Below are positions 49,553-64,000 of a stretch of DNA of 64,000 nt, one piece after another. Position numbers and translations under genes: made by a program. The DNA is from a virus. Where the stretch lies: positions 1-64,000 of IMG/VR virus record IMGVR_UViG_3300042402_001758; one strand, given 5' to 3'. Numbering within the stretch: position 1 is the stretch's first letter; the number at the start of each line of letters is the position of its first letter. The notes beneath the pieces are model-generated. The model did no database searches, was not told the origin of the DNA, and saw only the letters and a list, made by a program, of their open reading frames with translations.

Positions 49553-49569
49553 ACCTTATGGAGAATAAA

Positions 49570-50301
49570 ATGAAAGATATTTTAACAGACATTGTAAGTC
49601 ATACACATACTTTAGGAAATATTCCTTTAGTTAAAATTACTGGAAACGAAGCAGAAACTATTATTGAGTCTATGGCAGAAGATCGTAGCGTAATTATCAA
49701 TGCTAAAACTAATAGCCCTGTGACTGAATTTACTGGAACATTCGGTATGCCTAACTTAGATAAGCTAAGTTTGCATTTAAGAAATCCTGAATATAAAGAA
49801 AATGCTAAAATCGAAGTAATTATAGCAGAAAGAAATGGTGAAGAAATTCCTGTAAGTTTACACTTTGAAAATAGTACAGGAGACTTTGTTAATGATTACA
49901 GATTTATGAATCAACAAATTATTAATGAAAAATTAAAAACTGTGAAATTTAAAGGAGCAAGTTGGGATATAGAATTAGAACCTAGTTTAGCTGCTATTAC
50001 AAGATTAAAATTACAGTCTCAAGTGCATAGTGAAGAACCTGTATTTCAAGTAAAAACTGAAAATGGAAACTTAGTATTCTTCTTTGGAGATGCAAGTACT
50101 CATGCAGGAAGTTTTATTTTTGAAGCAGGTGTAACTGGAAAATTGAAACAAGTATGGAGTTGGCCGATTTCTCAAGTGCTAAACATTCTTAGTCTAGACG
50201 GAGATAAAGTAATGAAAATTGCAGATGCAGGTGCAATGATGATCACAGTAAACAGCGGTTTAGCCAGTTATGATTACATTTTGCCAGCACATACAAAATG
50301 A
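49570..50301 (+). CDS. 45: Sliding clamp (gp45)
   Basis: 243 aa from the ATG at 49570 (GGAG six bases before it; an upstream ATG at 49558 would be four residues longer). Recognised by overall pattern as the T4-type PCNA-like clamp: KITGNEAETIIESMAEDRSVIINAKTNSPVTEFTGTFGMPNLDKLSLHL, INEKLKTVKFKGASWDIELEPSLAAI and the end VNSGLASYDYILPAHTK. T4 gp45 is 228 aa. Forms a trimeric ring on DNA with gp43 and also activates late transcription in T4. That role would suit the late-type promoters seen in this window. Confidence 0.9.
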   Translation: MKDILTDIVSHTHTLGNIPLVKITGNEAETIIESMAEDRSVIINAKTNSPVTEFTGTFGMPNLDKLSLHLRNPEYKENAKIEVIIAERNGEEIPVSLHFENSTGDFVNDYRFMNQQIINEKLKTVKFKGASWDIELEPSLAAITRLKLQSQVHSEEPVFQVKTENGNLVFFFGDASTHAGSFIFEAGVTGKLKQVWSWPISQVLNILSLDGDKVMKIADAGAMMITVNSGLASYDYILPAHTK

Positions 50302-50501: not shown

Positions 50502-50989
50502 TGGGAATGAGAGAAAAAGATCAAGCAGATTTTGATTTAGAAACATTTGTGGATTTATTTGATACAGCAATGAGTTCAGATAATCCGGCAGTACAACGAG
50601 CACTAAAAAATTTAGTGTTAATTAGTGCTATGGTTAATGCACAACAAAATCCTGAAGGACTACGTAAAGGTCCATTACGTAGAATAGTAGATGATATTAA
50701 TAATATTACTAGACGATTAAGTAATTTAGAAAATGCAGGAGCATATAGATCAACTTATGCACCTACAACAATAACATCTCCAGGAACTGCTGTGCCTTCT
50801 GGACCATGGACCGGTACTAATCCTCCTGTACATCCTGGGCAAACTCATTGGCCTACTACATTGCCTGGTACTATACCTCCTGGAACTATCATAAGCGGAT
50901 CTAGCACTTCAGATACATTTAAAGCACAAGCTATGAATCAGATAGATGTACAAGTAGGATCATTGTTAGAAAAATTAGAGGCAAAATGA
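50501..50989 (+). CDS. Phage protein with helical N-terminus and Pro/Thr-rich linker, unknown
   Basis: 162 aa from the ATG at 50501 (TAATG; the longer frame upstream overlaps the membrane gene). Helical residues 1-75 (FDLETFVDLFDTAMSSDNPAVQRALKNLVLISAMVNAQQNP) are followed by a T/P/G-rich linker (TTITSPGTAVPSGPWTG...) and a C-terminal helix (AMNQIDVQVGSLLEKLEAK). No catalytic motif. Overlaps the DpdA-like gene by four bases; may be its partner. Confidence 0.65.
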   Translation: MGMREKDQADFDLETFVDLFDTAMSSDNPAVQRALKNLVLISAMVNAQQNPEGLRKGPLRRIVDDINNITRRLSNLENAGAYRSTYAPTTITSPGTAVPSGPWTGTNPPVHPGQTHWPTTLPGTIPPGTIISGSSTSDTFKAQAMNQIDVQVGSLLEKLEAK

Positions 50990-52530
50990 ATACAGATTTA
51001 ACTGCCACACAAAACGATTATGCATTATTTTTACCTGCTACTAGCGGCTTTTATGCATCGTTCATTGGATATCAGAGACATAGATATCCTTATGTACAAC
51101 CTAGCAGAATACCACAAAACTTTATTAACGATGTCGAAGGACTTAATTATCTAGATCCTCAAAAAGGATTATTCTATTATAAGTGGTGTTTATATTCTGC
51201 TGGTCACGCAAATTTAGATTTAGCTAAAAATGATGATAGAGAATCTATGTTCAGGAATCGTCCAAGAAATGGAGACAGTTGGGTTCTTGGGGACTCTGGA
51301 GGATTCCAGATAGGTAAAGGAAAGTGGGAAGCCGACTGGAAAGATCCTAATTGTCCGGCTGCACAGAAAAAACGTAGTCAAGTATTGACTTGGATGGACA
51401 GTCTAATGGATTATGGAATGTGTTTAGATATTCCTGCTTGGGTAGCTCGTAGTCCTGAAGGCGCTGCTGCTAGTAAAATTAATTCCTATATGGAAGCAGT
51501 TCAAGGCACATATCTAAATAATGACTACTTTATTAAAAATCGAAATGGTAATTGTAAATTTTTAAACGTGTTACAAGGTGAAAATCATTCAGATGCTGAA
51601 GATTGGTATCAACGTATGAAACACTATTGCGATCCGAAGGTATTTCCAGATGCACATTTTAACGGTTGGGCTATGGGTGGACAAAATATGTGCGATTTGC
51701 ATCTCACTTTGAAAAGACTTGTATCTTTAAGATTTGACGGTTTATTAGAAAAAGGTAAACAAGACTGGATGCACTTCTTAGGAACAAGTAAATTGGAATG
51801 GGCATTATTACTTACCGATATTCAACGTGCTGTAAGAAAATATCATAATGAAAACTTTACTATTAGTTTTGATTGTGCAAGTCCATTTTTGGCCACTGCT
51901 AATGGCCAAATGTACATACAGACAGAAATTGAAGATCGTAAGAAGTGGTTATATAGAATGTTACCTACTTTAGATAATAAACAATACGCAACAGATACAA
52001 GATTATTTAGAGATACATTAATTCAAGATGGGATATTCAAGTATGTAGAAAATAGCCCTGTATTAGATGGTGTTAAAACTAACGAAGTTTGTGTTTACGC
52101 TCCTGGTAACCTAAATAGGATGGGTAAAGAAAATAAAACTAGTTGGGATAGTTTCACTTATGCTATTCTCATGGGGCATAATGTTTGGATGCATCTTAGT
52201 TCTGTTCAAGAAGCCAATCGACAATATGATGCGGGTTTATGTCCTGGTATGCTAGTTCAAGAAAAATTTGATAGAATCTTTTTTAAAGACGTAATAGATG
52301 CAATTTTTGCAACTAGTGATAGAGGAGTTGCTGATCAAATCGTAGAAGAATTTAGTAAGTTTTGGATGGCAATTCCTGGCACTAGAGGTTACACAGGAAA
52401 ACGCACTATAAACGCAAATACCAATTTTGCCAAATTCTTTGACGATAATGATAATGATAATGTACAATCTGACGTCGTTGAAGACTTTTCCGAAGATAAA
52501 CTTGATGAACTTGAAGAAAGTATAAAATGA
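50986..52530 (+). CDS. dpdA: DpdA/TGT-like 7-deazaguanine DNA transglycosylase
   Basis: 514 aa. Fingerprint of the TGT fold: LGDSGGFQIG (Asp103-Ser-Gly-Gly-Phe-Gln108), DIPAWVA, NVLQGEN, NGWAMGG and FDCASPF (Asp296, Cys297), equivalent to TGT DSGGFQ, VQGG, AIGG and FDCVxPTR with catalytic aspartates. It is larger than bacterial TGT and lacks the usual CxCxxC zinc tail. Phage and bacterial members of this group (DpdA) swap guanine in DNA for preQ0-type bases. FolE, a QueD-like protein and QueE in the same window support this reading. Confidence 0.82.
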   Translation: MNTDLTATQNDYALFLPATSGFYASFIGYQRHRYPYVQPSRIPQNFINDVEGLNYLDPQKGLFYYKWCLYSAGHANLDLAKNDDRESMFRNRPRNGDSWVLGDSGGFQIGKGKWEADWKDPNCPAAQKKRSQVLTWMDSLMDYGMCLDIPAWVARSPEGAAASKINSYMEAVQGTYLNNDYFIKNRNGNCKFLNVLQGENHSDAEDWYQRMKHYCDPKVFPDAHFNGWAMGGQNMCDLHLTLKRLVSLRFDGLLEKGKQDWMHFLGTSKLEWALLLTDIQRAVRKYHNENFTISFDCASPFLATANGQMYIQTEIEDRKKWLYRMLPTLDNKQYATDTRLFRDTLIQDGIFKYVENSPVLDGVKTNEVCVYAPGNLNRMGKENKTSWDSFTYAILMGHNVWMHLSSVQEANRQYDAGLCPGMLVQEKFDRIFFKDVIDAIFATSDRGVADQIVEEFSKFWMAIPGTRGYTGKRTINANTNFAKFFDDNDNDNVQSDVVEDFSEDKLDELEESIK

Positions 52531-52772
52531 CTTTGCCAGATGAAAGATTTCGAGCTGTGCTTAGAACAAGAGAGCTGTTAGTAAACTTGTGTAACCCACA
52601 GCATACTCCCCGAGTTCCTAAAATTATCAGAGATGAAGCAAGATGGTGTCTACGACACTATCCTGATTATTATGATATGAATAAAACATCTCAAACAAGT
52701 CCTGATATTTTTCAAGAAAGAATGGAACCAGTAACTAGACTTTTTAAACAGTATGAGGAAAATGTAAAATGA
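52527..52772 (+). CDS. BPSL0761-like small protein
   Basis: 81 aa. MTLPDERFRAVLRTRELLVNLCNPQHTPRVPKIIRDEARWCLRHYPDYYDM matches the pattern of the BPSL0761 family seen in proteobacteria (T.PDER..A...TR..L..L.....TPRVP...R..A...LRHYP). Function unknown. Overlaps the stop of the DpdA-like gene by four bases and the next start by four. Confidence 0.75.
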   Translation: MTLPDERFRAVLRTRELLVNLCNPQHTPRVPKIIRDEARWCLRHYPDYYDMNKTSQTSPDIFQERMEPVTRLFKQYEENVK

Positions 52773-53272
52773 TTACAATTAAAGATTTTATGGAATGTGT
52801 AGATTATCGTATCACTGAAGGAAGCGACTATCTATGGAACTGTTTTGGTCCGAACGCTCATGCATTAGATTGCTGGAATGGAGATCACGACGGTTTTAGT
52901 ATCGGTATTGTATTTGATACTAAAACTACTACTGTATATAAATTCGAAGCACACGATTATGATAAAGAAAACAGTTATCGGTGGATACATCCTGAATTTA
53001 GAGAAGCACATAATAACGAATCTAAAACCAGAGGTGTAGATGTTAAAGAAGCATATGATCATGTTAACTTTGTAGATATTGATTTAGCTGATGACATCAT
53101 AGAAAAAGCTACACATATTGTTATGGGTATCGATTATGATGAACGTGTGCAAGTACCATTAGACCTTCCAGACAATTTATTAAATAAACTTTTCAGAATT
53201 GCGCACGAACAAGATATTACTCTAAACGAATTAGTAGAAAACATTCTTAGAGAAGAACTTAAAATTCAATGA
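52769..53272 (+). CDS. Protein with C-terminal ribbon-helix-helix-like segment, unknown
   Basis: 167 aa. An N-terminal domain (YRITEGSDYLWNCFGPNAHALDCWNGDHDGFSIGIVFDTKTTTVYKFEAHDY) of unknown function, and a C-terminal segment VQVPLDLPDNLLNKLFRIAHEQDITLNELVENILREELK that looks like the MetJ/Arc fold (strand, helix, loop, helix). It might be a regulator. Overlaps both neighbours by four bases. Confidence 0.62.
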   Translation: MITIKDFMECVDYRITEGSDYLWNCFGPNAHALDCWNGDHDGFSIGIVFDTKTTTVYKFEAHDYDKENSYRWIHPEFREAHNNESKTRGVDVKEAYDHVNFVDIDLADDIIEKATHIVMGIDYDERVQVPLDLPDNLLNKLFRIAHEQDITLNELVENILREELKIQ

Positions 53273-54144
53273 AAAGTCTTATTATAGGCATGGGTATCGG
53301 TCAATTATACAAAAATGTACTGACCAATCTAGGAGCCGAGATTGTAACAGTAGATTCTGATATTAGTAAAAAAGCAGACTTTCCTGATGCTGTATCAGCT
53401 ATACTAGCTAGAGGCCCTTTTGATACTGCTCACATCTGTACACCAAATTTTACACATTTTCAATTAGCTGTAAAAATTTCCCACGAATGTAAAATTGTGT
53501 TTATCGAAAAGCCTGGTGTGGCCACGGCTAGTAATTGGATGACTCTTGTTCACTCCTTTCCTGATACACGTTTTATGATGGTGAAGAATAATATGTGGCG
53601 TAGTAACATCAAAGAATTACAAGAATCTGCTCAATCGGCGGACAGGGTCAGACTTAATTGGTTAAATCAAGATCGTGTGCCTAGTCCTGGAAGCTGGTTT
53701 ACTACAAAAAAACTTGCTTATGGTGGAGTTAGTAGAGATCTAATGCCTCACTTACTGAGCTTGTATATAGCGTTAAACCCTGACTGGTTAACTACTGCTA
53801 TGAATAATCGTTCTAGTTTGATGAGATACCATTTAAAAGATTTATTAAACACAGAATACGGCACAGTTAATTCAGATGGTACATACGATGTAGACGACTT
53901 TGCTCAAATACGATTTAGTAACAAATGGAAATTGACCGCAGACTGGCGCACATTAGATAAAGACAAACGTAACATTGAAATGGATTTCGGCAATAGCACA
54001 TTTACATATGAATTAGGATTATGCCCAGAAGATGCTTACGAACGTATGATCGACGATGCAATACGTAATCTCGATAATGACAAATTCTGGAGTAAACAAA
54101 ATACAATAGATTATTGGATTCACGAAAGAATGGAGAACTTTTGA
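53269..54144 (+). CDS. Gfo/Idh/MocA-type oxidoreductase
   Basis: 291 aa. N-terminal Rossmann motif IIGMGIGQLYKNVLTNLGAEIVTVD, HICTPNFTHFQLAV, and the family EKP motif in VFIEKPGVATASNW. The C-terminal alpha/beta domain has GGVSRDLMPHLLSL. Family enzymes oxidise or reduce sugars with NAD(P). Followed by a zinc-type dehydrogenase, so the two may form a two-step sugar/polyol conversion (inference). Substrate not known; the unusual absence of GxGxxG after GMGIGQ is only a variation. Confidence 0.8.
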   Translation: MKSLIIGMGIGQLYKNVLTNLGAEIVTVDSDISKKADFPDAVSAILARGPFDTAHICTPNFTHFQLAVKISHECKIVFIEKPGVATASNWMTLVHSFPDTRFMMVKNNMWRSNIKELQESAQSADRVRLNWLNQDRVPSPGSWFTTKKLAYGGVSRDLMPHLLSLYIALNPDWLTTAMNNRSSLMRYHLKDLLNTEYGTVNSDGTYDVDDFAQIRFSNKWKLTADWRTLDKDKRNIEMDFGNSTFTYELGLCPEDAYERMIDDAIRNLDNDKFWSKQNTIDYWIHERMENF

Positions 54145-55052
54145 AAGTACGTTTACTTAGAACATACAGTGATGGTAAGTTTGTAGAAGAAGAATGGACT
54201 AAACCAGAACCTGCTGATACTGAAATTGAAGTTAAAGCTGTTATGACTGGTGTTTGCCGTAGTGATATAGATATGATGACAGGCAAATTTCCTACATTGC
54301 CTGCTCATATGAGTGGTCACGAAGGATTAGGTATTGTTACCAAAGTTGGTGGACAAATACTCAATGTTAAAGAAGGCGATTATGTAGCGACTCGAGGAGA
54401 GCCTGCATATGCCGACTATTACAATGTTAGAGCTAGAGAATTTATAGTAGTTCCTAGCGCCGAGCCTAAATATATTTTAGAACCAGTAGCTTGTGGTATT
54501 AACATTGTCAAACAAAACAGCACATTACTTCAAAGCAAAATACTACAACTATCTAAATGTTTGATAATTGGTAGTGGCTTTCTTGCCTGGGTTGCTTACA
54601 ACACACTAAAACTAGATTATTACAAATTTGGTACTATTGAAGTTTGGGGGAATAGCAATCACGAACTGTGGGCAAATGAGAATGTATTAGTACAAGAGCC
54701 AAGTTACGAAAAATATGATGTGATTATTGACATTAGAGAACACACAGAAGTGCTGAAACGTAAACTGTTGGCTCCGCAAGGCGTTTGGATTATAGCTGCG
54801 GAAAAAGAATCATTCACAACTACATTTAGCGAACTACTTTGGAATGCCAATACTATTGCTATGCCTAGTCCAAGACATAACGGATTTTATAATGCAATGT
54901 ACGAAGCAGAGCTTTGGGTAAAAACAAATAATTTAAAAGTTGACACATTCTGGACTAAGTGCTATAATCGCAACACTGAATGGCAACAAGCATTCGAAGA
55001 TGGATTAAACAGACCACAAGGCTACAGTAGAGGATATATTAAATGGGATTAA
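54141..55052 (+). CDS. Zinc-type alcohol/polyol dehydrogenase (MDR), short
   Basis: 303 aa from a TTG at 54141, preferred over the TTG at 54114 because GGAG precedes it and it overlaps the previous stop by four bases. MDR features: GVCRSDIDMMTGKFPTLPAHMSGHEGLGIV (catalytic zinc Cys and the His-Glu pair), GDYVATRG, and the nucleotide-binding IIGSGFLAWVAYNTL, in which GxGxxG is altered. The structural-zinc four-Cys lobe is missing and the protein is shorter than the usual 340-350 aa. Likely sugar or polyol dehydrogenase. Confidence 0.78.
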   Translation: MKVRLLRTYSDGKFVEEEWTKPEPADTEIEVKAVMTGVCRSDIDMMTGKFPTLPAHMSGHEGLGIVTKVGGQILNVKEGDYVATRGEPAYADYYNVRAREFIVVPSAEPKYILEPVACGINIVKQNSTLLQSKILQLSKCLIIGSGFLAWVAYNTLKLDYYKFGTIEVWGNSNHELWANENVLVQEPSYEKYDVIIDIREHTEVLKRKLLAPQGVWIIAAEKESFTTTFSELLWNANTIAMPSPRHNGFYNAMYEAELWVKTNNLKVDTFWTKCYNRNTEWQQAFEDGLNRPQGYSRGYIKWD

Positions 55053-55576
55053 ACACAGAACAAAGGCAAGATGTAACTTATTTCACAGGCTATGAAGTAG
55101 AACATACTGTAGCTCACGGTATGTACACATTGTTCGTTGTAGGAACACCGAGTCTAAAAGACATTCTTGCAATAGCAGAAGATTCTCAAAGCTTCGAAGA
55201 TAAAGATAAACGTATTAAACAAATTTACTTTGGTACTAGTCAAAGTTTTAATCCGGCAACATATGATAACTGGAAAATTTGGGATAACAGGATTATGGGA
55301 TGCTTGGAGGCAGGATATTGGGTCTGCTTAGACTTCGATGTCAAATATGCTGAAGAAATACACGAAGAAGGGTGGTGCGAACAAGATAGATTTATTCCTA
55401 TGATTAGTGTAAAATTACCTTACATTAAACTTTACAACTACAACGCAACACTTAAAATTGACGACCGTACTTGGGGTGCTACTAATCCTGGAGTATGGAC
55501 CCATCAACTACACGATCTAATGCGTAAAACTAAGTATACACATTGGGATCAATATACACAGGACAGCCCAGTATGA
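55043..55576 (+). CDS. Conserved phage protein linked to modification genes, unknown
   Basis: 177 aa. Distinctive pattern TYFTGYEVEHTVAHGMYTLFVVGTPS, QIYFGTSQSF, GYWVCLDFDVKYAEEI, RFIPMISVKLPYIKLYNYNATLKIDD and TNPGVWTHQLHDL. I recall the same pattern in T4-like marine phages near FolE/Que genes, so it may take part in the 7-deazaguanine or nucleotide pathway, but no enzyme motif is recognised. Overlaps its neighbours by ten and four bases. Confidence 0.65.
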   Translation: MGLNTEQRQDVTYFTGYEVEHTVAHGMYTLFVVGTPSLKDILAIAEDSQSFEDKDKRIKQIYFGTSQSFNPATYDNWKIWDNRIMGCLEAGYWVCLDFDVKYAEEIHEEGWCEQDRFIPMISVKLPYIKLYNYNATLKIDDRTWGATNPGVWTHQLHDLMRKTKYTHWDQYTQDSPV

Positions 55577-56115
55577 AAATTAAACGAATCAAAAAAGATT
55601 ATACTGGTACTGTATTATCTAAAGATCATAGTATTCGAGGAAAACAATTTGAACAAGTTATGTCTAGAGATGGGTGGAACATTAACCAAGGCCCTGGCGC
55701 AGATTTACAACAGATTGGTATAGAAGTTAAAACTAAAGATGTAAATTCTGGTTCTGCCAATAGTGTAGGAACTATAACTGTTCAAGATATTTGTTCTTTA
55801 TCTTATAAACAAACTCATATTTTTGAAAAACTACAAAAGCAATTTAGAATAACTACTGCCGATGGAATAGTCACGAACCAAGATTTATTCGATTTTACAG
55901 ATCCATACATACAAGAAAAAATAGAAGAAGCTTACGAAATTGGAAGACAGAAAATAATTAATGGAGATAGGTCTTCATACATAAGAGGATCAGAATACGG
56001 TCATTTTGAACAAAGAACAGAAAATTCTTATGTATTTCGAATACCTGTAGGATCTATGAAGAAAATTGAATCAATGAGTAAATCAACCTTTAACGATTTT
56101 TTTGAATACAAATGA
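55573..56115 (+). CDS. PD-(D/E)XK / MutH-like nuclease
   Basis: 180 aa from the ATG at 55573 (ATGA overlap; an upstream start would be ten residues longer). Catalytic pattern RGKQFEQVM (Glu27), then GADLQQIGIEVKTK: Asp44, Glu51-Val-Lys53, the D-(x6)-E-x-K order of MutH/Sau3AI-type enzymes, whose core reads DFxxLGxELKT. The C-terminus is a long helical region. Probably a DNA nickase or endonuclease acting beside the DpdA-like system; perhaps unable to cut the phage's own modified DNA (inference). Confidence 0.72.
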   Translation: MKIKRIKKDYTGTVLSKDHSIRGKQFEQVMSRDGWNINQGPGADLQQIGIEVKTKDVNSGSANSVGTITVQDICSLSYKQTHIFEKLQKQFRITTADGIVTNQDLFDFTDPYIQEKIEEAYEIGRQKIINGDRSSYIRGSEYGHFEQRTENSYVFRIPVGSMKKIESMSKSTFNDFFEYK

Positions 56116-56507
56116 TAATCAAACAAGACATAAGACCAAATAAAATGATTTGGGTTACCTTTCGTAAAGAAGGTATTCATAAATATCCAGCAGCATTAAC
56201 TGATCCTAACCTAGCAACAGGAGACAAATATGACGTTTCGTTCCTCGGCCATCCTCATCGCCATATCTTTCATTTTCGTGTCTGGATTGGCGTTAATCAC
56301 AATGACAGAGACATTGAGTTCATCCAGTTTAAAAGATGGCTTGAAGAATTGTATAATGGCGACCAAGCTGTATTGCAATTAGATTATAAAAGTTGCGAAA
56401 TGATGTCAGATGATTTGTATGACATGATTTCAAAAAAGTATCCAAATAGAGAAGTTTGGATCGAGGTCTCCGAAGATGGAGAAAATGGTAGTTTTATCAA
56501 ATATTAA
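56112..56507 (+). CDS. T-fold 6-pyruvoyl-tetrahydropterin synthase/QueD-like protein
   Basis: 131 aa. FLGHPHRHIFHFRVWIGV resembles the zinc-binding HGH strand of QueD/PTPS, preceded by another His (GIHKYPAA); DRDIEFIQFKRWL matches the GMVxDF..LK step; SCEMMSDDLYDMI and VSEDGENGS match the later PT..E.LA and V.E...N positions. A QueD enzyme would convert dihydroneopterin triphosphate, made by FolE, to carboxytetrahydropterin for QueE. Canonical catalytic Cys position is unclear, so the step is inferred. Overlaps the nuclease gene by four bases. Confidence 0.62.
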   Translation: MIIKQDIRPNKMIWVTFRKEGIHKYPAALTDPNLATGDKYDVSFLGHPHRHIFHFRVWIGVNHNDRDIEFIQFKRWLEELYNGDQAVLQLDYKSCEMMSDDLYDMISKKYPNREVWIEVSEDGENGSFIKY

Positions 56508-56529
56508 TTTAATAAACAAGGAAACAAAA

Positions 56530-56754
56530 ATGGCTAAAAATTACAAAGGCTATGCATACTTCGATAACAATCCTAACATCGTTAAAATCTTTGACGACTT
56601 AGAAGCATTGCTCGACTTTTGTCGTTTCGAGTTACTGCCTTTTAATCAGGCAGATCTTTATAATAAAGAAAGCGATGTATGGAAGAGATTTCTACAAGCT
56701 AACAGGAATTTCAAAGGTCGTAACAATAACTATCGTAAACAAAAAGATCGCTAA
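56530..56754 (+). CDS. Small phage protein, function unknown
   Basis: 74 aa from the ATG at 56530, after AAGGAAAC; the longer frame runs back into the previous gene. MAKNYKGYAYFDNNPNIVKIFDDLEALLDFCRFELLPFNQADLYNKES then a basic C-terminus (FKGRNNNYRKQKDR) suggesting nucleic-acid binding. Stop overlaps the glycosyltransferase start (TAATG). Confidence 0.62.
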   Translation: MAKNYKGYAYFDNNPNIVKIFDDLEALLDFCRFELLPFNQADLYNKESDVWKRFLQANRNFKGRNNNYRKQKDR

Positions 56755-57848: not shown

Positions 57849-58197
57849 AACAGAATCTTTAAAATCTGATGATATCACTGTAACTTGGGATGTGAATAGC
57901 CTCCCAAGTTTGAACACATCGGACATTATAACATTAACAGGTACACCTTATAATTCAGGATCTTATACAATAGGCAATATAGAAACAGTAGATTTAACTG
58001 GTATCGATTCTTTTACTACTTTTACTAATTTTTATAAAGACGAGTTTGATGGTAGATTTCCAGATTACGAACGTGTTCAAGAAATGTGTAAAGAATATCC
58101 TGGACTGGAAATCGCATACAGAAAATTTAAAGAAGTTTATAAAATGGTTAAAGAAGATTTTGACGGAAAAGAAAGAGAACGTAAAGGATACAAGTAG
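57802..58197 (+). CDS. Phage protein, GTG start, unknown
   Basis: 131 aa, starting at a GTG preceded by GGAGG, within the last codons of the glycosyltransferase (47-base overlap). N-terminal half is Thr/Ser/Asp-rich and beta-like (VTLDETESLKSDDITVTWDVNSLPSLNTSDIITLTGTPYNSGSYTIGN); the C-terminal half is helical and charged (ERVQEMCKEYPGLEIAYRKFKEVYKMVKEDF). The second half looks like a separate conserved helix region. Function unknown. Confidence 0.6.
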   Translation: MNNSSQEPIYTVTLDETESLKSDDITVTWDVNSLPSLNTSDIITLTGTPYNSGSYTIGNIETVDLTGIDSFTTFTNFYKDEFDGRFPDYERVQEMCKEYPGLEIAYRKFKEVYKMVKEDFDGKERERKGYK

Positions 58198-58198
58198 T

Positions 58199-58561
58199 AT
58201 GACAACGTTTACTATACCTGCTACAACTACTGGTCAAATTTATGTAAGCCCTAGTGGGTCTGGTGGCAGTGCAGTATGGTCCAATACAATTCATCCAACT
58301 ACTCAATTTGGAAACAATAACGGAAAACCTGTTATGGAAATTCCGAATAGTAGTAATCCCAGTATTAAAATTAACGGCAAGATAGAATGGAATGGTGACG
58401 ATCTGCACGAAAGATTAAAACGAATAGAAACTATGTTGAACATTCCTACAAGAGATGCTATAATGGAGGAGAAGTATTCAAAGCTTAAGAAAATTAATGA
58501 TGAATACAACAAAGCGTTAGCAGAATATAAAACTTGGGAAACTTTAAAGGACTCAAAATGA
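58199..58561 (+). CDS. Phage protein with Ser/Gly-rich N-terminus and coiled coil, unknown
   Basis: 120 aa from the ATG at 58199, one base after the previous stop; the longer upstream frame overlaps the prior gene. Residues 1-45 are T/S/G-rich beta type (TIPATTTGQIYVSPSGSGGSAVW); then IKINGKIEWNGDDLHERLKRIETMLNIPTRDAIMEEKYSKLKKINDEYNKALAEYKTWE, where INGKIEWNGDDLHERLKRIE is a segment I recall from other phage virion or tail-associated proteins. Role unknown. Confidence 0.62.
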   Translation: MTTFTIPATTTGQIYVSPSGSGGSAVWSNTIHPTTQFGNNNGKPVMEIPNSSNPSIKINGKIEWNGDDLHERLKRIETMLNIPTRDAIMEEKYSKLKKINDEYNKALAEYKTWETLKDSK

Positions 58562-58770
58562 TTGAACAACTAATAACAGATCAACCGGCTTGGAAGCTTC
58601 GTTTAAAAGTTAATGACTGTATGAAACCAGACGGACTTAAACATCTTATGTTTACTGGGGAACAGTATAACGACAAAGGCGAATTAACCAATTCTAGTAC
58701 ATACGATTTCTTTCTAAATCAAGAAGAAGTCTCTAAACTTTGGACAACCTTAGCAAATGGTGTAAGATGA
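58558..58770 (+). CDS. Small phage protein, function unknown
   Basis: 70 aa from the ATG at 58558, overlapping the previous stop by four bases. MIEQLITDQPAWKLRLKVNDCMKPDGLKHLMFTGEQYNDKGELTNSSTYDFFLNQEEVSKLWTTLANGVR: compact, soluble, no cysteine pair or membrane segment. Overlaps the PRTase start as ATGA. Confidence 0.62.
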   Translation: MIEQLITDQPAWKLRLKVNDCMKPDGLKHLMFTGEQYNDKGELTNSSTYDFFLNQEEVSKLWTTLANGVR

Positions 58771-59342
58771 AAAAAATACATGTAACTTGGTCGGATATTC
58801 AAGGCAGTGTTATCGAAATTGCTAGGCAATTACAAAAAGATAACTGGCGTCCAGATTACATTGTAGGAATCACACGCGGTGGTGCTGTTCCTGCTGTAAT
58901 GCTTAGTCAATACCTCGATATTCCTATGCGACCATTACAGGTCAGTTTACGTGACGGTGGCGAGTGTGTGAGCGACTTAGGCATGGCCGAAGATGCTTTT
59001 GGATATGTTCCTATGAATGATCGAGGGTATGAGCATTTTGAGATTACTGGATTGCCTGTACGTCACGATCCTACTAATCGAGATCTACGTAAAAAGATTT
59101 TGATAGTAGATGACATTAACGATACCGGTGCTACTATTGCCTGGATTAAAAAAGACTGGCCCAGTGGATGCCTTCCAAATAATCATGCTTGGAAAAATAT
59201 CTTTCATAACAACGTAAGATTTGCCGTGATTCATAATAATCTTGCTAGCAAAGAAGAAGTAGATTATTCAACTATAGAAATTAACAAAGCCGAAGAAGAC
59301 TGTTGGATTGTCTATCCCTGGGAGGAATTTTGGCGTGGATAA
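58767..59342 (+). CDS. Type I phosphoribosyltransferase
   Basis: 191 aa from the ATG at 58767 (ATGA overlap; the longer frame runs into the previous gene). PRPP-binding motif ILIVDDINDTGATI and IVGITRGGAVPAVMLSQYLDIPM identify a xanthine/hypoxanthine/guanine-type PRTase. An insert (DGGECVSDLGMAEDAFGYVPMNDRGYEHFEITGLPVRHDPTNRDL) and a C-terminal WIVYPWEEFWRG are present; WIVYPWE is typical of purine PRTases. Likely purine salvage, or handling of 7-deazapurine bases; substrate not determined. Confidence 0.85.
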   Translation: MKKIHVTWSDIQGSVIEIARQLQKDNWRPDYIVGITRGGAVPAVMLSQYLDIPMRPLQVSLRDGGECVSDLGMAEDAFGYVPMNDRGYEHFEITGLPVRHDPTNRDLRKKILIVDDINDTGATIAWIKKDWPSGCLPNNHAWKNIFHNNVRFAVIHNNLASKEEVDYSTIEINKAEEDCWIVYPWEEFWRG

Positions 59343-59715
59343 TAAAGAACTAGATCGTTTCTGCTGTAATTGGGATATTCAATTACGTCATAGTTCACGC
59401 ACTATTAGAAAGGCTAAACCACCACAGGTTAGCACTTATCAGGATGCACATGATTTTTATTTTGCTACAGAAGAGTTAGAGTGTTATGATATTCTAATAC
59501 CTAAAGATAACTTTCATGCCTTAGCCGAAATTGATCAAAGAATGAATGACGTAATTGTTAAATCTCGTGGAGATCAAGATTACATCAATCATATGAAGCG
59601 TAAAGAAATGATTGAGATTAAAGCAAGAAATAATAATCCTGCTGTTAAAAAGGCCTGGGATAATTATTCTACATTAATGAATATGGTTTGGAACGAGTAT
59701 GCTGACAGATATTGA
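59335..59715 (+). CDS. Phage protein, GTG start, unknown
   Basis: 126 aa from a GTG at 59335 that overlaps the PRTase stop and has GGAGG upstream. Sequence is helical and charged (RFCCNWDIQLRHSSRTIRKAKPPQVSTYQDAHDFYFATEELECYDILIPKDNFHALAEIDQRMNDVIVKSRG). No motif recognised. Overlaps the HIT gene by 17 bases. Confidence 0.6.
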   Translation: MDNKELDRFCCNWDIQLRHSSRTIRKAKPPQVSTYQDAHDFYFATEELECYDILIPKDNFHALAEIDQRMNDVIVKSRGDQDYINHMKRKEMIEIKARNNNPAVKKAWDNYSTLMNMVWNEYADRY

Positions 59716-60070
59716 AAAGGCCTTAAATGAAAAAAGAGCACCGTGGACAGAAATTGAATACAGAACTAAAGACTTCTGGGTCTTTAGAGACGCTTACGCA
59801 GTTACCCCAGGGCATTTGTTATTTGTGCCTACCGAAGAAAACTGGAACAATCTCTGGGAATGCTACAAAGCAGCCTACAAGTTCGGACACGAAGGTGTTG
59901 AAGCTGAAAGGTGGGATGCTTTTAACATCGGCCAAAATGTTGGAGAAGCAGCTGGCCAAACAGTAATGTATCCGCATGTGCATATGATACCTCGACGCAA
60001 AGGCGATATGGAAGATCCAAGAGGAGGAGTTAGACATGTCATTCCGGATAAAGGGAATTATAGAAAATGA
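59699..60070 (+). CDS. HIT-family nucleotide hydrolase-like protein
   Basis: 123 aa. TPGHLLFVPT and GQNVGEAAGQTVMYPHVHMIPRRKGD are the HIT-fold signatures. In the family HxHxHxx triad the first His is Tyr91 here, while His93 (nucleophile position) and His95 are kept. The C-terminal DPRGGVRHVIPDKGNY is typical of bacterial and phage HIT proteins. HIT enzymes cleave nucleotide phosphoramidates, Ap4A or dinucleotides. May relate to modified nucleotide turnover (inference). Confidence 0.85.
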   Translation: MLTDIEKALNEKRAPWTEIEYRTKDFWVFRDAYAVTPGHLLFVPTEENWNNLWECYKAAYKFGHEGVEAERWDAFNIGQNVGEAAGQTVMYPHVHMIPRRKGDMEDPRGGVRHVIPDKGNYRK

Positions 60071-60240
60071 TAGTTTACCTTGCATCGGCTACAAATACTG
60101 AGGGCGACAGAGCTATGGAAAGACTCTATTATACTAAAGAACGTGCAGAAGAAGCTGCTCAGGCTATGTGCGAAGAATTAAAAGAAAAAATGAATTGGAT
60201 CTATTATCCTATGATAGAGGAAATGGAACTTGTCGAATAA
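60067..60240 (+). CDS. Small phage protein (57 aa), unknown
   Basis: Starts MIVYLASATNTEGDRAMERL inside the HIT stop (ATGA) and ends where the next ATG begins (TAATG). A strand-like start and an acidic helical remainder (KERAEEAAQAMCEELKEKMNW...EEMELVE). The tight overlaps on both sides support that it is a real gene. Function unknown. Confidence 0.65.
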   Translation: MIVYLASATNTEGDRAMERLYYTKERAEEAAQAMCEELKEKMNWIYYPMIEEMELVE

Positions 60241-60455
60241 TGTCTAAAGACATGTCAGATACTTCGTTCAATATTTGGATCGATTGGAAAAAAGATGATA
60301 TGCCGTGGAATGAGATCTGTGTTAAGGTGTTGGAAGTGTTTGGATTGCCAGGACACCGTTACATTACTGCGTCGTCTACCATGCATTTAATTTTTAGATT
60401 TAAAACAGAAAACGATTATCGCTTATGTACAATATTATTAAGTGAATACTTATGA
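60240..60455 (+). CDS. Small phage protein, unknown
   Basis: 71 aa from the ATG at 60240 (TAATG; the longer upstream frame runs antiparallel to nothing useful and overlaps the 57-aa gene). MSKDMSDTSFNIWIDWKKDDMPWNEICVKVLEVFGLPGHRYITASSTMHLIFRFKTENDYRLCTILLSEYL: compact alpha/beta, FRFKTENDYRLCTILLSEYL is characteristic. Overlaps the next start by four bases. Function unknown. Confidence 0.62.
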   Translation: MSKDMSDTSFNIWIDWKKDDMPWNEICVKVLEVFGLPGHRYITASSTMHLIFRFKTENDYRLCTILLSEYL

Positions 60456-61249
60456 TTTATGAAAAAATTGGCATTATTGGGCACGGGTACGTAGGCGAAG
60501 CTATAACTCAAAACTTGATAACATCTTTCGAACCTATAATTTTAGATCCTGCTAAAGGTTATACAGCTACTTACAATCAAATTAAAAAAGAATGTTCTAG
60601 TGTATTTGTTTGTGTTCCTAGTCCGCAAGGCACCAATGGATATTGCGATACCAGTATAGTAGAAGAAGTTTTAAAAAATCTAGAAGGATATAACGGCACT
60701 ATTATTAGCAAAGTCACTGCTCCTCCGGATTTTTACGAATTATGGAATAAAAAATTACCTAATTTAGTATATGTTCCTGAATTCTTACGGGCAGAATCTA
60801 GTGTTACAGATTTTGGTAATACAGAATGGGTTATTATAGGTGGTTCTGTGGTAGCCTATCAACGTGACACAGCACGTATTTTAAAAGAAATACAACCAGG
60901 TATTAAACACGTAGAATATTGTGGTATAGGCGAAGCGGCATTTGTAAAATATTCTATTAATACATTCCTAGCAACTAAAGTTGTTTTTATGAATGAATTA
61001 AATCAACTAGCAAACACTCATAATTATGATTGGAAACACCTTGCCTACCTAATAAGAATGGATCGACGTATAGGCGATAGTCATACTCAAGTGCCTGGTC
61101 CAGATGGATACTATGGTTTTGGCGGTGCCTGTTTTCCTAAAGATACAGAAGCACTACTAAAATATTCTGAAGACCGTGGCATAAACCTAAATACATTAGG
61201 TGCCGCAGTAAAGAAAAATACTCTTTTGCGATTGACAAAACCTAAATAA
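60452..61249 (+). CDS. UDP-glucose/GDP-mannose dehydrogenase-like, short form
   Basis: 265 aa, lacking the C-terminal UDP-binding domain of full-length enzymes (about 400 aa). Rossmann GIIGHGYVGEAIT, VCVPSPQG, VPEFLRAESSVTDF, KYSINTFLATKVVFMNE, and FGGACFPKDT with catalytic Cys227. The family oxidises a nucleotide sugar to a uronate. Whether the short form is active or binds a different substrate is unknown. Its last codons contain the promoter for FolE. Confidence 0.88.
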   Translation: MIYEKIGIIGHGYVGEAITQNLITSFEPIILDPAKGYTATYNQIKKECSSVFVCVPSPQGTNGYCDTSIVEEVLKNLEGYNGTIISKVTAPPDFYELWNKKLPNLVYVPEFLRAESSVTDFGNTEWVIIGGSVVAYQRDTARILKEIQPGIKHVEYCGIGEAAFVKYSINTFLATKVVFMNELNQLANTHNYDWKHLAYLIRMDRRIGDSHTQVPGPDGYYGFGGACFPKDTEALLKYSEDRGINLNTLGAAVKKNTLLRLTKPK

Positions 61250-61260
61250 TATAATAAAAT
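61232..61260 (+). promoter_or_regulatory. Sigma70-type early promoter before folE
   Basis: TTGACA (61232-61237), 17-bp spacer, TAAAAT (61255-61260). Start near 61267, then AAAGGA and the ATG at 61279. The -35 lies inside the 3' end of the dehydrogenase gene. Confidence 0.7.
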
Positions 61261-61278
61261 AGCAAGAAAGGACAACTT

Positions 61279-62055
61279 ATGGTTTATAACAAAATGTATG
61301 TAAGTAACGATGATATTCACGAATCAGGAGTAGACGCAATGGCTGGAAATGGTGGCTACTCAGAAGGCAAAGTAAGCGATCAACTTCGTTTTAAAATGAA
61401 GCGAGATGGTAAAAGATTCTGGGCAGGCGACAATATTAGTGAATACATCTACGCAGACTCAACTCGACAACAGTTAATTGACGAAGCTACTGTGGCATTC
61501 GAACATGTATTGGATGCACTATTAATTGATCGAGAAACCGATCCTAACAGTCAAGGAACAGCAAGACGACTAGCTAAGATGTATTACAATGAAATTATGG
61601 CGGGTAGATACGAACTGGCACCAGATTGCACAGCATTTCCTAATGACAGCACAGATCGGTACGAAGGCATGCTTGTTGTTCGCAGTGAACTTCGTAGTAT
61701 GTGTAGTCACCATCACCAACCTGTATCTGGTGTTGCTTATATCGGTATTATCGCCGCTAATAAACTTATCGGTCTCAGTAAGTATACTCGTATTGCTCAG
61801 TGGTGTGCTCGCCGTGGCACTTTACAAGAAGAATTAGCTAATGACATTGCTAGAGAGATTATGAAGGCGACCGATGCCAAAGATGTAGGTGTTTACATAC
61901 AAGCCACACATGGCTGCTGTGAAAATCGCGGAATTATGGCACATAGCAGTCTTACACAGACTACAGTATTAAAAGGTGCTTTTAAAGATGATCAAGGAAC
62001 TAAAAAAGAATTCTTTGACAACATTAAACTACAACAGGACTTTGCTCCTAGATAA
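61279..62055 (+). CDS. folE: GTP cyclohydrolase I
   Basis: 258 aa. MCSHHHQPVSGVAYIGI (zinc Cys-His-His), KLIGLSKYTRI and THGCCENRGI (second zinc-ligand Cys) are diagnostic. The enzyme opens GTP to dihydroneopterin triphosphate, the first step to folate and also to 7-deazaguanines. The N-terminal about 60 residues are an extension. Beside the QueE gene it most likely feeds preQ0 synthesis. Own early promoter. Confidence 0.95.
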   Translation: MVYNKMYVSNDDIHESGVDAMAGNGGYSEGKVSDQLRFKMKRDGKRFWAGDNISEYIYADSTRQQLIDEATVAFEHVLDALLIDRETDPNSQGTARRLAKMYYNEIMAGRYELAPDCTAFPNDSTDRYEGMLVVRSELRSMCSHHHQPVSGVAYIGIIAANKLIGLSKYTRIAQWCARRGTLQEELANDIAREIMKATDAKDVGVYIQATHGCCENRGIMAHSSLTQTTVLKGAFKDDQGTKKEFFDNIKLQQDFAPR

Positions 62056-62063
62056 GGAAAATC

Positions 62064-62561
62064 ATGGCTAATTGGAAAGTATCGACTTACTACAAAAAAT
62101 CATGCGAAGAACACGAGCATTATGTTAAAGATGGAAAAACAATTATTCGTAAAACAGGATTCCGTGGTTGTAGTTTTTTTGTAGAAACAAATAATGATAA
62201 TCCTCCTGAATTCGAATTCACATATGTTCCAGGAGGCGACAAGAATAAAGACAGCATCAATATGTACGATTGCTGTTATAATAATATCGAAAATGTCGAA
62301 CTTGATACTATGTGGGACGGCTGTTGGGAAGATATAGAGTTTCCAGAAGATATGGACGAGGAACTACAAGAAGCACTAAAAGAACGTTTTGAAGAATCCA
62401 GTGTATATGAAGTACTGGAAGACGAAGAAGGATGGAGCCAAAACGAATGTGAGGCGTGGATTTGGGGACCAATTCTTATCGAGGATGAAAACGGTAACAA
62501 AGTTAAAATTATTTGTGCTGACGAGAATGGTGATGTAATAGATTTTAAAGAGGAAAATTAA
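62064..62561 (+). CDS. Acidic phage protein, unknown
   Basis: 165 aa, strongly acidic (WEDIEFPEDMDEELQEALKERFEES...EDEEGWSQNECEAW) with several cysteines. The N-terminus MANWKVSTYYKKSCEEHEHYV is characteristic. A DNA-mimic role (as for anti-restriction proteins) is conceivable from the charge only. Between FolE and small genes leading to QueE; AAGGAAAATC ribosome site. Confidence 0.62.
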   Translation: MANWKVSTYYKKSCEEHEHYVKDGKTIIRKTGFRGCSFFVETNNDNPPEFEFTYVPGGDKNKDSINMYDCCYNNIENVELDTMWDGCWEDIEFPEDMDEELQEALKERFEESSVYEVLEDEEGWSQNECEAWIWGPILIEDENGNKVKIICADENGDVIDFKEEN

Positions 62562-62562
62562 A

Positions 62563-62754
62563 ATGAATGTAAGTGATAAATTAGAAAAAGTTTCGGATAG
62601 TTTTACTGTTAACATGTACGATAACGGATTTATGGTAGACGTAAGTGGACGAGATCCAGATGGCGAATATAAAAGTGCTAGAATTCTCTGCCAAAACTTA
62701 GAGCAAGTTATTGCTCTAGTAACAGAAATTACTTCCATGGAAAGAGATAGTTAA
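62563..62754 (+). CDS. Small phage protein, unknown
   Basis: 63 aa, MNVSDKLEKVSDSFTVNMYDNGFMVDVSGRDPDGEYKSARILCQNLEQVIALVTEITSMERDS. An alpha/beta fold is suggested by VSDSFTVNMYDNGFMVDVSG. AGAGGA ribosome site precedes the ATG. The stop overlaps the next ATG (TAATG). I recall similar proteins in T4-like marine phages, function unknown. Confidence 0.62.
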   Translation: MNVSDKLEKVSDSFTVNMYDNGFMVDVSGRDPDGEYKSARILCQNLEQVIALVTEITSMERDS

Positions 62755-62975
62755 TGAATAAGCATAATGTCGACGATGTAATTTTCAGAATGAAGAATCT
62801 CAAAGAATATAAAGTAGTTCGGCCTCTGGCTGACGAGTTTGTTCTCAATGGAAAAATGCCTTACGATATTAAACTTGACAAAGATAATATGTTAACTGTA
62901 ACATTAATGGCTGTGGACAGAGTTGAAGCGGAACGTCGAGTTGACGAATTTCTAGAAGGAATGAAAGATGATTAA
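62754..62975 (+). CDS. Small phage protein, unknown
   Basis: 73 aa, alpha/beta, begins MNKHNVDDVIFRMKNLKEYKVV and ends RRVDEFLEGMKDD. No cysteine and no catalytic motif. Couples by TAATG to the gene before and by an eight-base overlap to the gene after. Function unknown. Confidence 0.6.
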   Translation: MNKHNVDDVIFRMKNLKEYKVVRPLADEFVLNGKMPYDIKLDKDNMLTVTLMAVDRVEAERRVDEFLEGMKDD

Positions 62976-63255
62976 AAAATGGTTTAAGAAAAAATTCAAA
63001 GAATGGTCTAAAGAAGCATGGGAAAGTGGAAGAGAAATTGTAGGACAAGATATTGTTGTTGAAAGTAATTCAATGCGTAGTGAGCCCGTTCTTAATTTTA
63101 CAATTTACAATGCTATTGGTGGCAAAATTGTAGAATTTAGATATCATGATAGACTGAAAGATCGTACTCACACACAAATGTACATCATTGGTAAAGATGA
63201 TGACTTTGGAGAGCGAATTGCCAAAATAGCTACATTGGAGGTACTAAAACAATGA
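62968..63255 (+). CDS. Small phage protein with amphipathic N-terminus, unknown
   Basis: 95 aa. Begins MIKKWFKKKFKEWSKEAWESG, an aromatic/basic amphipathic helix that could lie on a membrane or bind DNA; then a beta-rich part (DIVVESNSMRSEPVLNFTIYNAIGGKIVEFRYHD). Its stop overlaps the queE start (ATGA), so translation is coupled to the modification gene. Function unknown. Confidence 0.6.
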   Translation: MIKKWFKKKFKEWSKEAWESGREIVGQDIVVESNSMRSEPVLNFTIYNAIGGKIVEFRYHDRLKDRTHTQMYIIGKDDDFGERIAKIATLEVLKQ

Positions 63256-64000
63256 GTAAAATTAAAATAGCAGAACTATTTTATAGTATACAAGGAGAAG
63301 GACGCTTCATGGGTGTTCCTTCTATTTTCTTACGCACATTTGGTTGCAACTTTACCTGTGCTGGGTTCGGCATGCCTCCTGGAGAACGTAGCACTGCCAA
63401 CGATGATATTGCAGAAGTAGTACATTTGTACAACAAATATGAGGAACTTCCTATTGTAGAAACTGGATGCGACAGTTATGCAAGTTGGGATCCAAGATTT
63501 AAAGATCTAAGTCCTGTTCTCACTGTGGATGCCATAGCAAATAGAATGATAGATCTATTACCTGATAATAAATGGAGAGGAATACATTTAGTTATAACAG
63601 GTGGAGAACCTTTGTTAGGGTGGCAACGTAGCTATCCTGATTTATTAGATAACGATAAATTAAAAAAATTGAAAGATATCACATTTGAAACTAATGGTAC
63701 TCAAGAAATATCAAAAGATTTTAGAAAATATCTAGAAAAATGGACACATAAACACGGCTATCATAATCTTACATTTAGTGTGAGCCCAAAGTTAAGTGTT
63801 AGTGGAGAGAGAAGAGAAGATGCTATACGACCAGATATTGTAAAAAGTTATGAAGAGCTAGGACATACATATCTAAAATTTGTAGTTGCTAGCGAAGACG
63901 ATGTCAACGAAGCATTAGAAGTTATCGAAATTTATAAACAGGAAGATTTTGGCGGGCACATTTATTTAATGCCTGTTGGGGGTATCGAAAATGTATACGC
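63252..64000 (+). CDS. queE: 7-carboxy-7-deazaguanine synthase QueE, 3'-partial
   Basis: Open to the end of the window (249 complete codons). Radical-SAM enzyme that makes 7-carboxy-7-deazaguanine from carboxytetrahydropterin. Visible: FYSIQGEGRFMGVPSIFLRTFGCNFTC, ITGGEPLL (SAM-binding GGE motif), TFETNGTQ and FSVSPKLS. The cluster cysteines are Cys32 and Cys36, while the third corresponds to Cys73 (GCDSY) after an insertion of about 35 residues, unlike the usual CxxxCxxC. Starts inside the previous stop (ATGA). QueC is not in the window. Confidence 0.93.
   Translation, partial: MSKIKIAELFYSIQGEGRFMGVPSIFLRTFGCNFTCAGFGMPPGERSTANDDIAEVVHLYNKYEELPIVETGCDSYASWDPRFKDLSPVLTVDAIANRMIDLLPDNKWRGIHLVITGGEPLLGWQRSYPDLLDNDKLKKLKDITFETNGTQEISKDFRKYLEKWTHKHGYHNLTFSVSPKLSVSGERREDAIRPDIVKSYEELGHTYLKFVVASEDDVNEALEVIEIYKQEDFGGHIYLMPVGGIENVY

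Follow-up and report, generated by a model that had tools for sequence, protein, structure and literature searches.

A candidate QueC-less 7-deazaguanine DNA-modification pathway with an associated glycosyltransferase in a jumbo phage and related loci

Which modified base would be made by a phage that encodes the early enzymes of 7-deazaguanine synthesis together with a putative DNA transglycosylase, and in which no QueC is found? The question is raised by a 64,000-nucleotide stretch of viral DNA, positions 1 to 64,000 of the IMG/VR record IMGVR_UViG_3300042402_001758 (hereafter the window). A first-pass annotation, made from the letters of the window alone, had proposed a near-complete pathway for the insertion of a preQ0-type base in a T4-like phage, with QueC lying to the right of the window. 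The reading that we favour, tentatively and with slightly less than even confidence, is a QueC-less pathway on the 7-carboxy-7-deazaguanine (CDG) branch, in which the inserted base would then be glycosylated. The glycosyltransferase, and the recurrence of a QueD-like protein in the place of QueC, had escaped the first-pass annotation.

The virus record that opens with the window is 198,740 bases long and is contained in full, at 100% identity, in a longer record of 364,554 bases (IMGVR_UViG_3300042350_002797; hereafter the 364.5-kb record); from this containment the window phage is classed by sequence as a jumbo phage. The terminal 126 bases of the longer contig equal positions 46-171 at its start, following a fold-back of approximately 45 bases, and because the end repeats the start we take the record to be circularly closed and essentially complete. 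'T4-like' is a loose label for this genome of about 364 kb, the polymerase of which matches the phage family phrog_262. FolE, QueD and QueE are all predicted to be encoded by the window phage. Family searches confirmed FolE and QueE where the first-pass annotation had placed them, in the same direction as the transglycosylase gene (Table 1). QueE, cut by the window edge, extends 100 bases beyond it, and the full protein contains exactly three cysteines (C32, C36 and C73) and matches the NCBIfam QueE models below their cut-offs. A canonical QueD gene lies outside the window, approximately 1.7-2.3 kb to the left of window base 1. According to the accessible part of PMC13329287, FolE, QueD and QueE lead from GTP to CDG.

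QueC was then the missing enzyme. PF06508 (QueC) had no match in either the 198,740-base or the 364.5-kb record, and a hidden Markov model (HMM) trained on seven phage proteins that are QueC or QueC-like gave no match at E ≤ 10 among open reading frames of at least 50 amino acids (aa) in the 364.5-kb record; as a control, a leave-one-out version of this model recovered the QueC of phage nt-1 at E 7e-70. QueF (PF14489) also had no match in the 364.5-kb record. Because QueC was not found, the encoded route is predicted to end at CDG, and preQ0 is not its predicted product. The first-pass annotation had itself named a genome lacking QueC as an outcome that would tell against it, and the result weighs against its preQ0 version unless the host supplies the enzyme. 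The product is probably not derived from preQ0. A PP-loop gene at coordinate 347149 of the rotated 364.5-kb record was considered as a QueC and ruled out, as it matched neither PF06508 nor the phage-QueC HMM. QueF matches below cut-off were seen in six phage records besides Vibrio phage 2.275.O, five of the six inside annotated FolE genes.

A second protein related to QueD, of 131 aa, is encoded at position 56112. The first-pass annotation had called it a T-fold QueD-like protein; kinship with the QueD family is moderate (69% in hhalign between QueD and a diverse profile of the 131-aa family, against at most 2.5% for nine decoy families, and 30.6% with the narrower alignment A4), and the protein is predicted not to be a standard QueD. 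The catalytic cysteine of QueD, which we take from E. coli QueD to stand four residues before the first histidine of the HxH motif, corresponds in position to L45, and all 33 aligned sequences have leucine there. H49, H51, S94-C95-E96 and E121 are invariant in the same 33 sequences. The 131-aa protein matched 26 phage records. In Vibrio phage Bakedbeans (locus L131, 11230-12381) and Chryseobacterium phage MA9V-3 (locus L135, 11464-12345), the 131-aa family makes up the C-terminal portion of a larger protein.

The distribution of this family was compared with that of QueC in 18 phages, the records of which came from similarity searches. The 131-aa profile was found in 12 of them (the 364.5-kb record, PA5oct, Phosso, ACP17, X1, BUCT-ZZ01, phiST, RHph_I1_18, Bakedbeans, Ahp1, D479 and MA9V-3) and not found in the records of 2.275.O, GR7B, 9g, nt-1, immuto and pf16; for Ahp1, D479 and Bakedbeans, pathway genes were examined as far as FolE and a TGT-like gene, both of which were seen. 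PF06508 exceeded its cut-off in only one of the 12 phages with the 131-aa protein, D479, and in six of the six without it (one-sided Fisher test, 3.8e-4, which ignores phylogenetic kinship). Judged by these sequence matches, the 131-aa family and QueC are nearly exclusive among the 18 phages, and the 131-aa protein, sitting where QueC would, is the best candidate for the step after CDG. Cui et al. are said to have reported in 2023 both 7-carboxy-7-deazaguanine (as dCDG) and 7-deaza-dG in phages, and a CDG decarboxylase named DpdL; this is treated as a lead only, and the 131-aa family is not equated with DpdL.

The 514-aa protein encoded at position 50986 had been described as a TGT-fold protein with DSGGFQ and FDC motifs, TGT being the tRNA-guanine transglycosylase fold. 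Both motifs are present, at residues 103-108 and 295-297, and the modelled fold agrees. An AlphaFold2 model built on an alignment of 55 sequences had a pLDDT (predicted local distance difference test) of 79.7 and a pTM (predicted template modelling score) of 0.83. All 50 rows shown by Foldseek for this model were TGTs (best E 7.5e-7, probability 1.00), as were all 50 shown by VIA-align 2 (best Z 16.8, over 310 residues at a root-mean-square deviation of 4.6). D103-S104-G105-G106-F107-Q108, D148 and D296 show no variation among 14 diverse relatives, down to 24% identity; they include what we take, from the Z. mobilis TGT, to be the catalytic aspartate pair, the Ser-Gly-Gly and the base-recognition aspartate. 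On modelled fold and residues the protein is assigned to the TGT-superfamily transglycosylases, as a DpdA in the wide sense. No convincing Pfam, PHROG or NCBIfam family match was obtained; the tRNA TGT models PF01702 and TIGR00449 (NCBIfam tgt) did not match, and the C-x-C-x-x-C pattern, presumably the zinc motif of tRNA TGTs, is absent from the protein. Sequence and profile searches of the PDB failed to identify the transglycosylase, the glycosyltransferase and the 131-aa protein, the first two of which were identified by fold comparison.

A tblastn search of 50,697 phage records with the transglycosylase gave 14 relatives at or below E 0.01: 11 Pseudomonas records of the PA5oct type (34.5% identity), one each in Sinorhizobium phage Phosso and Vibrio phage 2.275.O, and a weak one in GR7B, which is annotated there as a TGT-domain protein. 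The DpdA2 of phage nt-1 (YP_008125322), the founding member of its family in the available text of PMC6884629, was not matched directly by tblastn. At the profile level, kinship with DpdA2 is suggested, though it depends on the alignment used: hhalign of the window family (a 14-sequence profile) with five DpdA2-family sequences gave 96.9%, or 92.3% when GR7B was left out, and nine decoy families stayed below 1%; the value dropped to 2.0% with A1, an alignment of close relatives. The single DpdA1 sequence of phage 9g gave 0.6%. The family search that had been suggested for this gene returned no Pfam, PHROG or NCBIfam family and, with the diverse profile, a possible DpdA2 relationship. Relatives are encoded by at least 599 IMG/VR stretches, whereas scans of IMG/VR with the PA5oct and 2.275.O transglycosylases returned nothing, such patterns reaching close relatives only. 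Around the 2.275.O homologue lie genes with annotations for a 7-cyano-7-deazaguanine reductase, a vitamin transporter, queuosine biosynthesis (QueC by family search), a GTP cyclohydrolase I and QueD. Directly after this homologue (locus L113, 16726-17838) lies an amidoligase candidate (PF12224, 21.9 bits against a cut-off of 22); in a phage with QueC and QueF it may represent another tailoring of the inserted base.

The 364-aa protein encoded at position 56754 is, by its modelled structure, a GT4-type glycosyltransferase with a GT-B fold. The AlphaFold2 model (pLDDT 86.8, pTM 0.85) returned in Foldseek glycogen synthase (3l01, E 3.2e-10), BshA (3mbo, 6.9e-10) and MshA. E272 and E280, spaced as in E-x7-E, which we take to be the GT4 motif, are invariant in 35 glycosyltransferase sequences; across six phage lineages E280 and the basic donor-site residues R220 and K225 do not vary, whereas E272 is replaced by aspartate in BUCT-ZZ01. 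By sequence the Glycos_transf_1 family was matched weakly, by 11 of the 35 members (best E 0.0054). A relationship to QTMAN/GTDC1, the queuosine mannosyltransferase that we take PF12038 to represent, was considered and dropped, since PF12038 was not among the nine families matched by any of the 35 members at E ≤ 1. The tblastn search with the glycosyltransferase matched 19 records. Its profile was not found in 2.275.O or GR7B; 9g, nt-1, immuto and pf16 are absent from the 19 records, and the profile was not run on these four.

The arrangement of these genes was compared in related IMG/VR loci. The best 80 of the at least 599 stretches were kept (L009-L088). Three of these, L009-L011, encode the window protein without change, and L010 is the 364.5-kb record; the counts use the remaining 77 loci (L012-L088). 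Downstream of the transglycosylase start, 38 of the 77 extend for 6 kb or more and 24 for 11 kb or more. As the loci share 65% identity or more in the transglycosylase and include near-duplicates, they cannot be counted as independent. The genes usually run polymerase, clamp-like gene, transglycosylase, an optional oxidoreductase pair, the 177-aa, 131-aa, 92-aa and 364-aa genes, then phosphoribosyltransferase, HIT protein, FolE, QueE and an exonuclease. The 131-aa and glycosyltransferase genes were present in 38 of 38 and 24 of 24 loci of the two subsets, and FolE and QueE in 20 and 19, respectively, of the 24 longer ones. The transglycosylase gene adjoins the polymerase and clamp-like genes, which suggests that the enzyme may work close to replication, and from this gene context it very probably acts on DNA. 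As for the first-pass proposal, the fold, the catalytic residues and the neighbourhood kept in related loci give good support to a DNA 7-deazaguanine system, whereas insertion of preQ0 is left unsupported by the failure to find QueC.

The pairing recurs in other lineages. A glycosyltransferase gene lies within one gene of a 131-aa homologue in five lineages besides the window phage, PA5oct, Phosso, ACP17, X1 and BUCT-ZZ01; membership of the glycosyltransferase family was 98.5-100% by hhalign in the last four. PA5oct has transglycosylase, glycosyltransferase and 131-aa protein, with a phosphoribosyltransferase and QueE further on and FolE and two QueD genes elsewhere. In Phosso the 131-aa protein and glycosyltransferase are followed by FolE and QueE, the transglycosylase lying approximately 170 kb away. 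The order is QueD, FolE, 177-aa homologue, transglycosylase, glycosyltransferase, 131-aa protein and QueE in ACP17; FolE, three other genes, glycosyltransferase, transglycosylase, 131-aa protein and QueE in X1; and QueE, guanine phosphoribosyltransferase, a small gene, QueD, FolE, a 447-aa protein, transglycosylase, 131-aa protein and glycosyltransferase in BUCT-ZZ01. The transglycosylase of ACP17 matches nt-1 YP_008125322 at E 8e-38 and also those of X1 (2e-40) and BUCT-ZZ01 (9e-50); the three are placed in the DpdA2 family, so the pair appears to serve two transglycosylase types.

Small TGT-like proteins were also seen near the 131-aa gene in Ahp1 (locus L132, 12450-13322), D479 (L133, 12683-13540), RHph_I1_18 (L130, 14071-15339) and phiST (L127, 15601-16380). 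That of Ahp1 has tblastn matches in D479, RHph_I1_18, Bakedbeans and, weakly, an immuto gene annotated as DNA guanine transglycosylase; that of phiST fits the Ahp1-type profile at 98%.

In the pathway that we propose, FolE, QueD and QueE would convert GTP to CDG, and the 131-aa QueD-like protein would replace QueC by acting on CDG or its product, perhaps in a decarboxylation. The DpdA-like transglycosylase would exchange guanine in the phage's own DNA for the 7-deazaguanine base, and the phosphoribosyltransferase may recycle the guanine so released. The GT4-fold enzyme would finally attach a sugar to this base once it is in DNA, yielding a bulky anti-restriction mark; that this enzyme modifies the base is an evenly balanced proposition. 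The weakest joint of the model is the acceptor: decarboxylation and glycosylation fit poorly together, because a 7-deazaguanine bare at C7 offers no obvious acceptor oxygen. The carboxylate might serve as acceptor, the sugar might be C-linked or placed elsewhere, or the glycosyltransferase might have another target.

Further observations weigh against this pathway. The contrast between the 131-aa family and QueC comes from few lineages, 9g and nt-1 having been picked as known pathway phages, and D479 has a QueC match over cut-off, though its open reading frame reads SGID where SGGxD is expected. QueC-like PP-loop genes occur in 3 of 20 related records, one of them over the Pfam cut-off, and PF06508 was matched in all 14 control genomes (over cut-off in 12), so that hosts commonly have QueC. 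For the transglycosylase, the Foldseek TM-scores were modest (0.34-0.51) and the alignment was shallow, its 55 sequences being, apart from the window protein itself, 68-84% identical to it. Six of the 12 carriers of the 131-aa protein gave no glycosyltransferase match, and the glycosyltransferase is therefore not needed for the pathway. Four of the 19 glycosyltransferase records (three Xanthomonas PhiXhv phages and Erwinia Ep032, at approximately 25% identity) are not among the 26 matched by the 131-aa protein. In 11 of the 24 long loci no UDP-glucose dehydrogenase-like gene, the candidate source of a sugar donor, turned up.

Observations made alongside concern the same proteins. The related contig 3300043446_002177 encodes a QueC-like protein that exceeds the Pfam cut-off (27.8 bits; locus L089, 1072-1665), and the QueC-less state may for this reason not hold for every member. 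In X1 a QueC match below cut-off was set aside, the open reading frame being NAD-synthetase-like on reading its sequence. In Xanthomonas phage PhiXhv-12 (locus L153, 9669-12903) the distant glycosyltransferase relative stands beside an annotated glutamine-fructose-6-phosphate aminotransferase and a BshB-like sugar deacetylase, and the locus looks like a separate sugar modification cluster; given these neighbours, the wider glycosyltransferase family seems to occur outside the deazaguanine pathway as well.

One alternative is a preQ0 route with host help, in which the phage boosts FolE, QueD and QueE, host QueC finishes preQ0, the transglycosylase inserts it and the glycosyltransferase acts elsewhere. 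Such a route has precedents: Hutinet et al. 2019 (PMC6884629), in the text available, put phage Bipper, which lacks only QueC, in the preQ0 group while noting the CDG alternative, and the accessible part of Iyer et al. 2021 (PMC7824862) proposes that host enzymes complement partial phage systems. Host help would not account, however, for the near-exclusive pattern of QueD-like protein and QueC in the 18 records, or for the presence of the glycosyltransferase and QueD-like genes in every locus with at least 6 kb downstream, and we consider this route unlikely. A somewhat better, though still doubtful, alternative is a CDG-branch base (dCDG or 7-deaza-dG) made alongside a glycosyltransferase with a separate job, on host surface polysaccharide or a virion protein. 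The carriers of the 131-aa protein that have no glycosyltransferase match would fit this, as would the polysaccharide glycosyltransferase clusters described for jumbo phages in the available text of PMC7824862; it is opposed by the closeness of the two genes in all six lineages, including Phosso, where the pairing holds despite the distant transglycosylase.

That the transglycosylase modifies phage or host tRNA instead of DNA is very improbable. Its fold is that of the tRNA TGTs, but the zinc motif is missing, the tRNA TGT models do not match, the gene is fixed beside those for the polymerase and clamp-like protein, and the suggested DpdA2 profile kinship points to DNA; ARAGORN, run on the window, found no tRNA gene. 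Of these readings, the QueC-less pathway with glycosylation of the inserted base is the one that we prefer.

Table 1 Predicted genes of the candidate modification block and its surroundings. Coordinates are those of the window unless stated; locus counts refer to the 77 related loci or to their subsets with at least 6 kb (38 loci) or 11 kb (24 loci) downstream.
Feature	Coordinates	Strand	Evidence and remarks
Phage DNA polymerase	46880..49543	+	phrog_262 E 2.3e-201; 75/77 loci; upstream end of block
Sliding-clamp-like protein	49558..50301	+	phrog_12062 (unknown function); 77/77 loci; between polymerase and transglycosylase
TGT-fold DNA guanine transglycosylase, DpdA-like (predicted), 514 aa	50986..52530	+	D103-S104-G105-G106, D148, D296; fold model
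Gfo/Idh/MocA-type oxidoreductase, optional	53269..54144	+	PF01408 E 1.7e-6; 29/77 loci
Zinc alcohol-dehydrogenase-like protein, optional	54114..55052	+	PF08240 E 9.5e-11; 29/77 loci; start codon uncertain
Conserved 177-aa protein of unknown function	55043..55576	+	38/38 loci
131-aa QueD-like protein	56112..56507	+	phrog_17812 (unknown function); proposed CDG-processing step in place of QueC
Small conserved 92-aa protein	56476..56754	+	55/77 loci; between QueD-like and glycosyltransferase genes
GT-B fold, GT4-type glycosyltransferase (predicted), 364 aa	56754..57848	+	R220, K225, E272-x7-E280; proposed DNA-base glycosyltransferase
Phosphoribosyltransferase	58740..59342	+	PF00156 E 1.7e-12; 33/38 and 20/24 loci
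HIT-family protein	59699..60070	+	PF01230 E 6.9e-9; 23/38 loci
UDP-glucose/GDP-mannose dehydrogenase-type protein	60452..61249	+	PF00984 E 3.5e-20, PF03721 E 9.1e-10; N-terminal and central domains only
FolE, GTP cyclohydrolase I	61279..62055	+	PF01227 E 2.1e-39; phrog_2197
QueE, 7-carboxy-7-deazaguanine synthase	63252..64000 (gene end 64100)	+	phrog_2076 E 9.5e-50
Canonical QueD (outside window)	217584-217997 of the 364.5-kb record	-	PF01242 E 6.1e-16; phrog_2389 E 1.6e-36

Among the remaining genes of the block, the clamp-like protein proved homologous (E 3e-41, in a five-protein pool) to a Phosso gene annotated as DNA polymerase III sliding clamp beta. Of 50,697 phage records, only 11 of the PA5oct type and 2 of ACP17 matched the 177-aa protein at E ≤ 0.01. 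The oxidoreductase and alcohol-dehydrogenase pair (53269-55052), lying between the transglycosylase and 177-aa genes, may be an optional sugar or base tailoring unit. A UDP-glucose dehydrogenase-like gene stands upstream or downstream of the block in many of the 77 loci, and its product in the window is a possible sugar-donor enzyme; as an obligatory donor enzyme it was dropped, being present in 13 of the 24 long loci and not universal. Outside the window, at approximately 229,800-241,400 of the 364.5-kb record, a cluster that is odd for a phage was seen by eye, with a ketoacyl synthase, an acyl carrier protein (ACP), a FabZ-like dehydratase, a Rieske protein, an ACP synthase, two desaturase-like proteins, a UbiB-like kinase and a PP-loop protein.

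Taken more widely, and with slightly greater reserve than the pathway itself, a widespread group of jumbo and T4-like phages may carry a glycosylated, CDG-built 7-deazaguanine made without QueC, by means of a QueD-derived enzyme, a dedicated glycosyltransferase and at least two transglycosylase subfamilies, one of them new. If so, phage DNA would contain a kind of base undescribed in the literature searchable here, a sugar-bearing deazaguanine, linking deazaguanine and glycosylation, anti-restriction strategies that are usually treated apart. A divergent DpdA-like family, encoded by the at least 599 IMG/VR stretches and missed in the window protein by Pfam, PHROGs and NCBIfam, would be added, and a protein family in the place of QueC named with a testable role. 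The prediction can be tested directly, as Paride, a PA5oct-type carrier of the glycosyltransferase, is recorded with the laboratory host P. aeruginosa PAO1. No report of glycosyltransferase-linked deazaguanine DNA modification was found in the searchable literature, outside which lie most subscription papers and Cui et al. 2023.

Among known systems, the DpdA2 pathway of nt-1 (Hutinet et al. 2019, PMC6884629, as far as its text was available) is alike in clustering FolE and a QueD-type gene with a DNA transglycosylase of the TGT superfamily, which seems related at the profile level; unlike the window phage, nt-1 has QueC beside DpdA2, lacks the 131-aa family and is not among the glycosyltransferase tblastn matches. 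PA5oct is closer, with the same transglycosylase family (34% identity), glycosyltransferase (41%) and QueD-like protein (55%), then phosphoribosyltransferase and QueE, and with no QueC match. The accessible part of Iyer et al. 2021 (PMC7824862) gives PA5oct a deazaguanine synthesis and incorporation system and some jumbo phages a partial one that may use host enzymes, and in that part neither the glycosyltransferase nor the missing QueC is mentioned as belonging to the system. Because it is already published for PA5oct, a deazaguanine system in this type of phage is not new. Cellulophaga phage phiST likewise has FolE, QueD, QueE and the 131-aa family together and no QueC match, but differs in having no glycosyltransferase match and a different small TGT-like protein. 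In phage T4, the acceptor base for glycosylation is hydroxymethylcytosine. The alpha- and beta-glucosyltransferases of T4 offer the parallel of glycosyltransferases that act on a modified phage-DNA base after replication (available text of PMC13216743), whereas a deazaguanine base is proposed here and the best fold matches of the enzyme are glycogen synthase, BshA and MshA.

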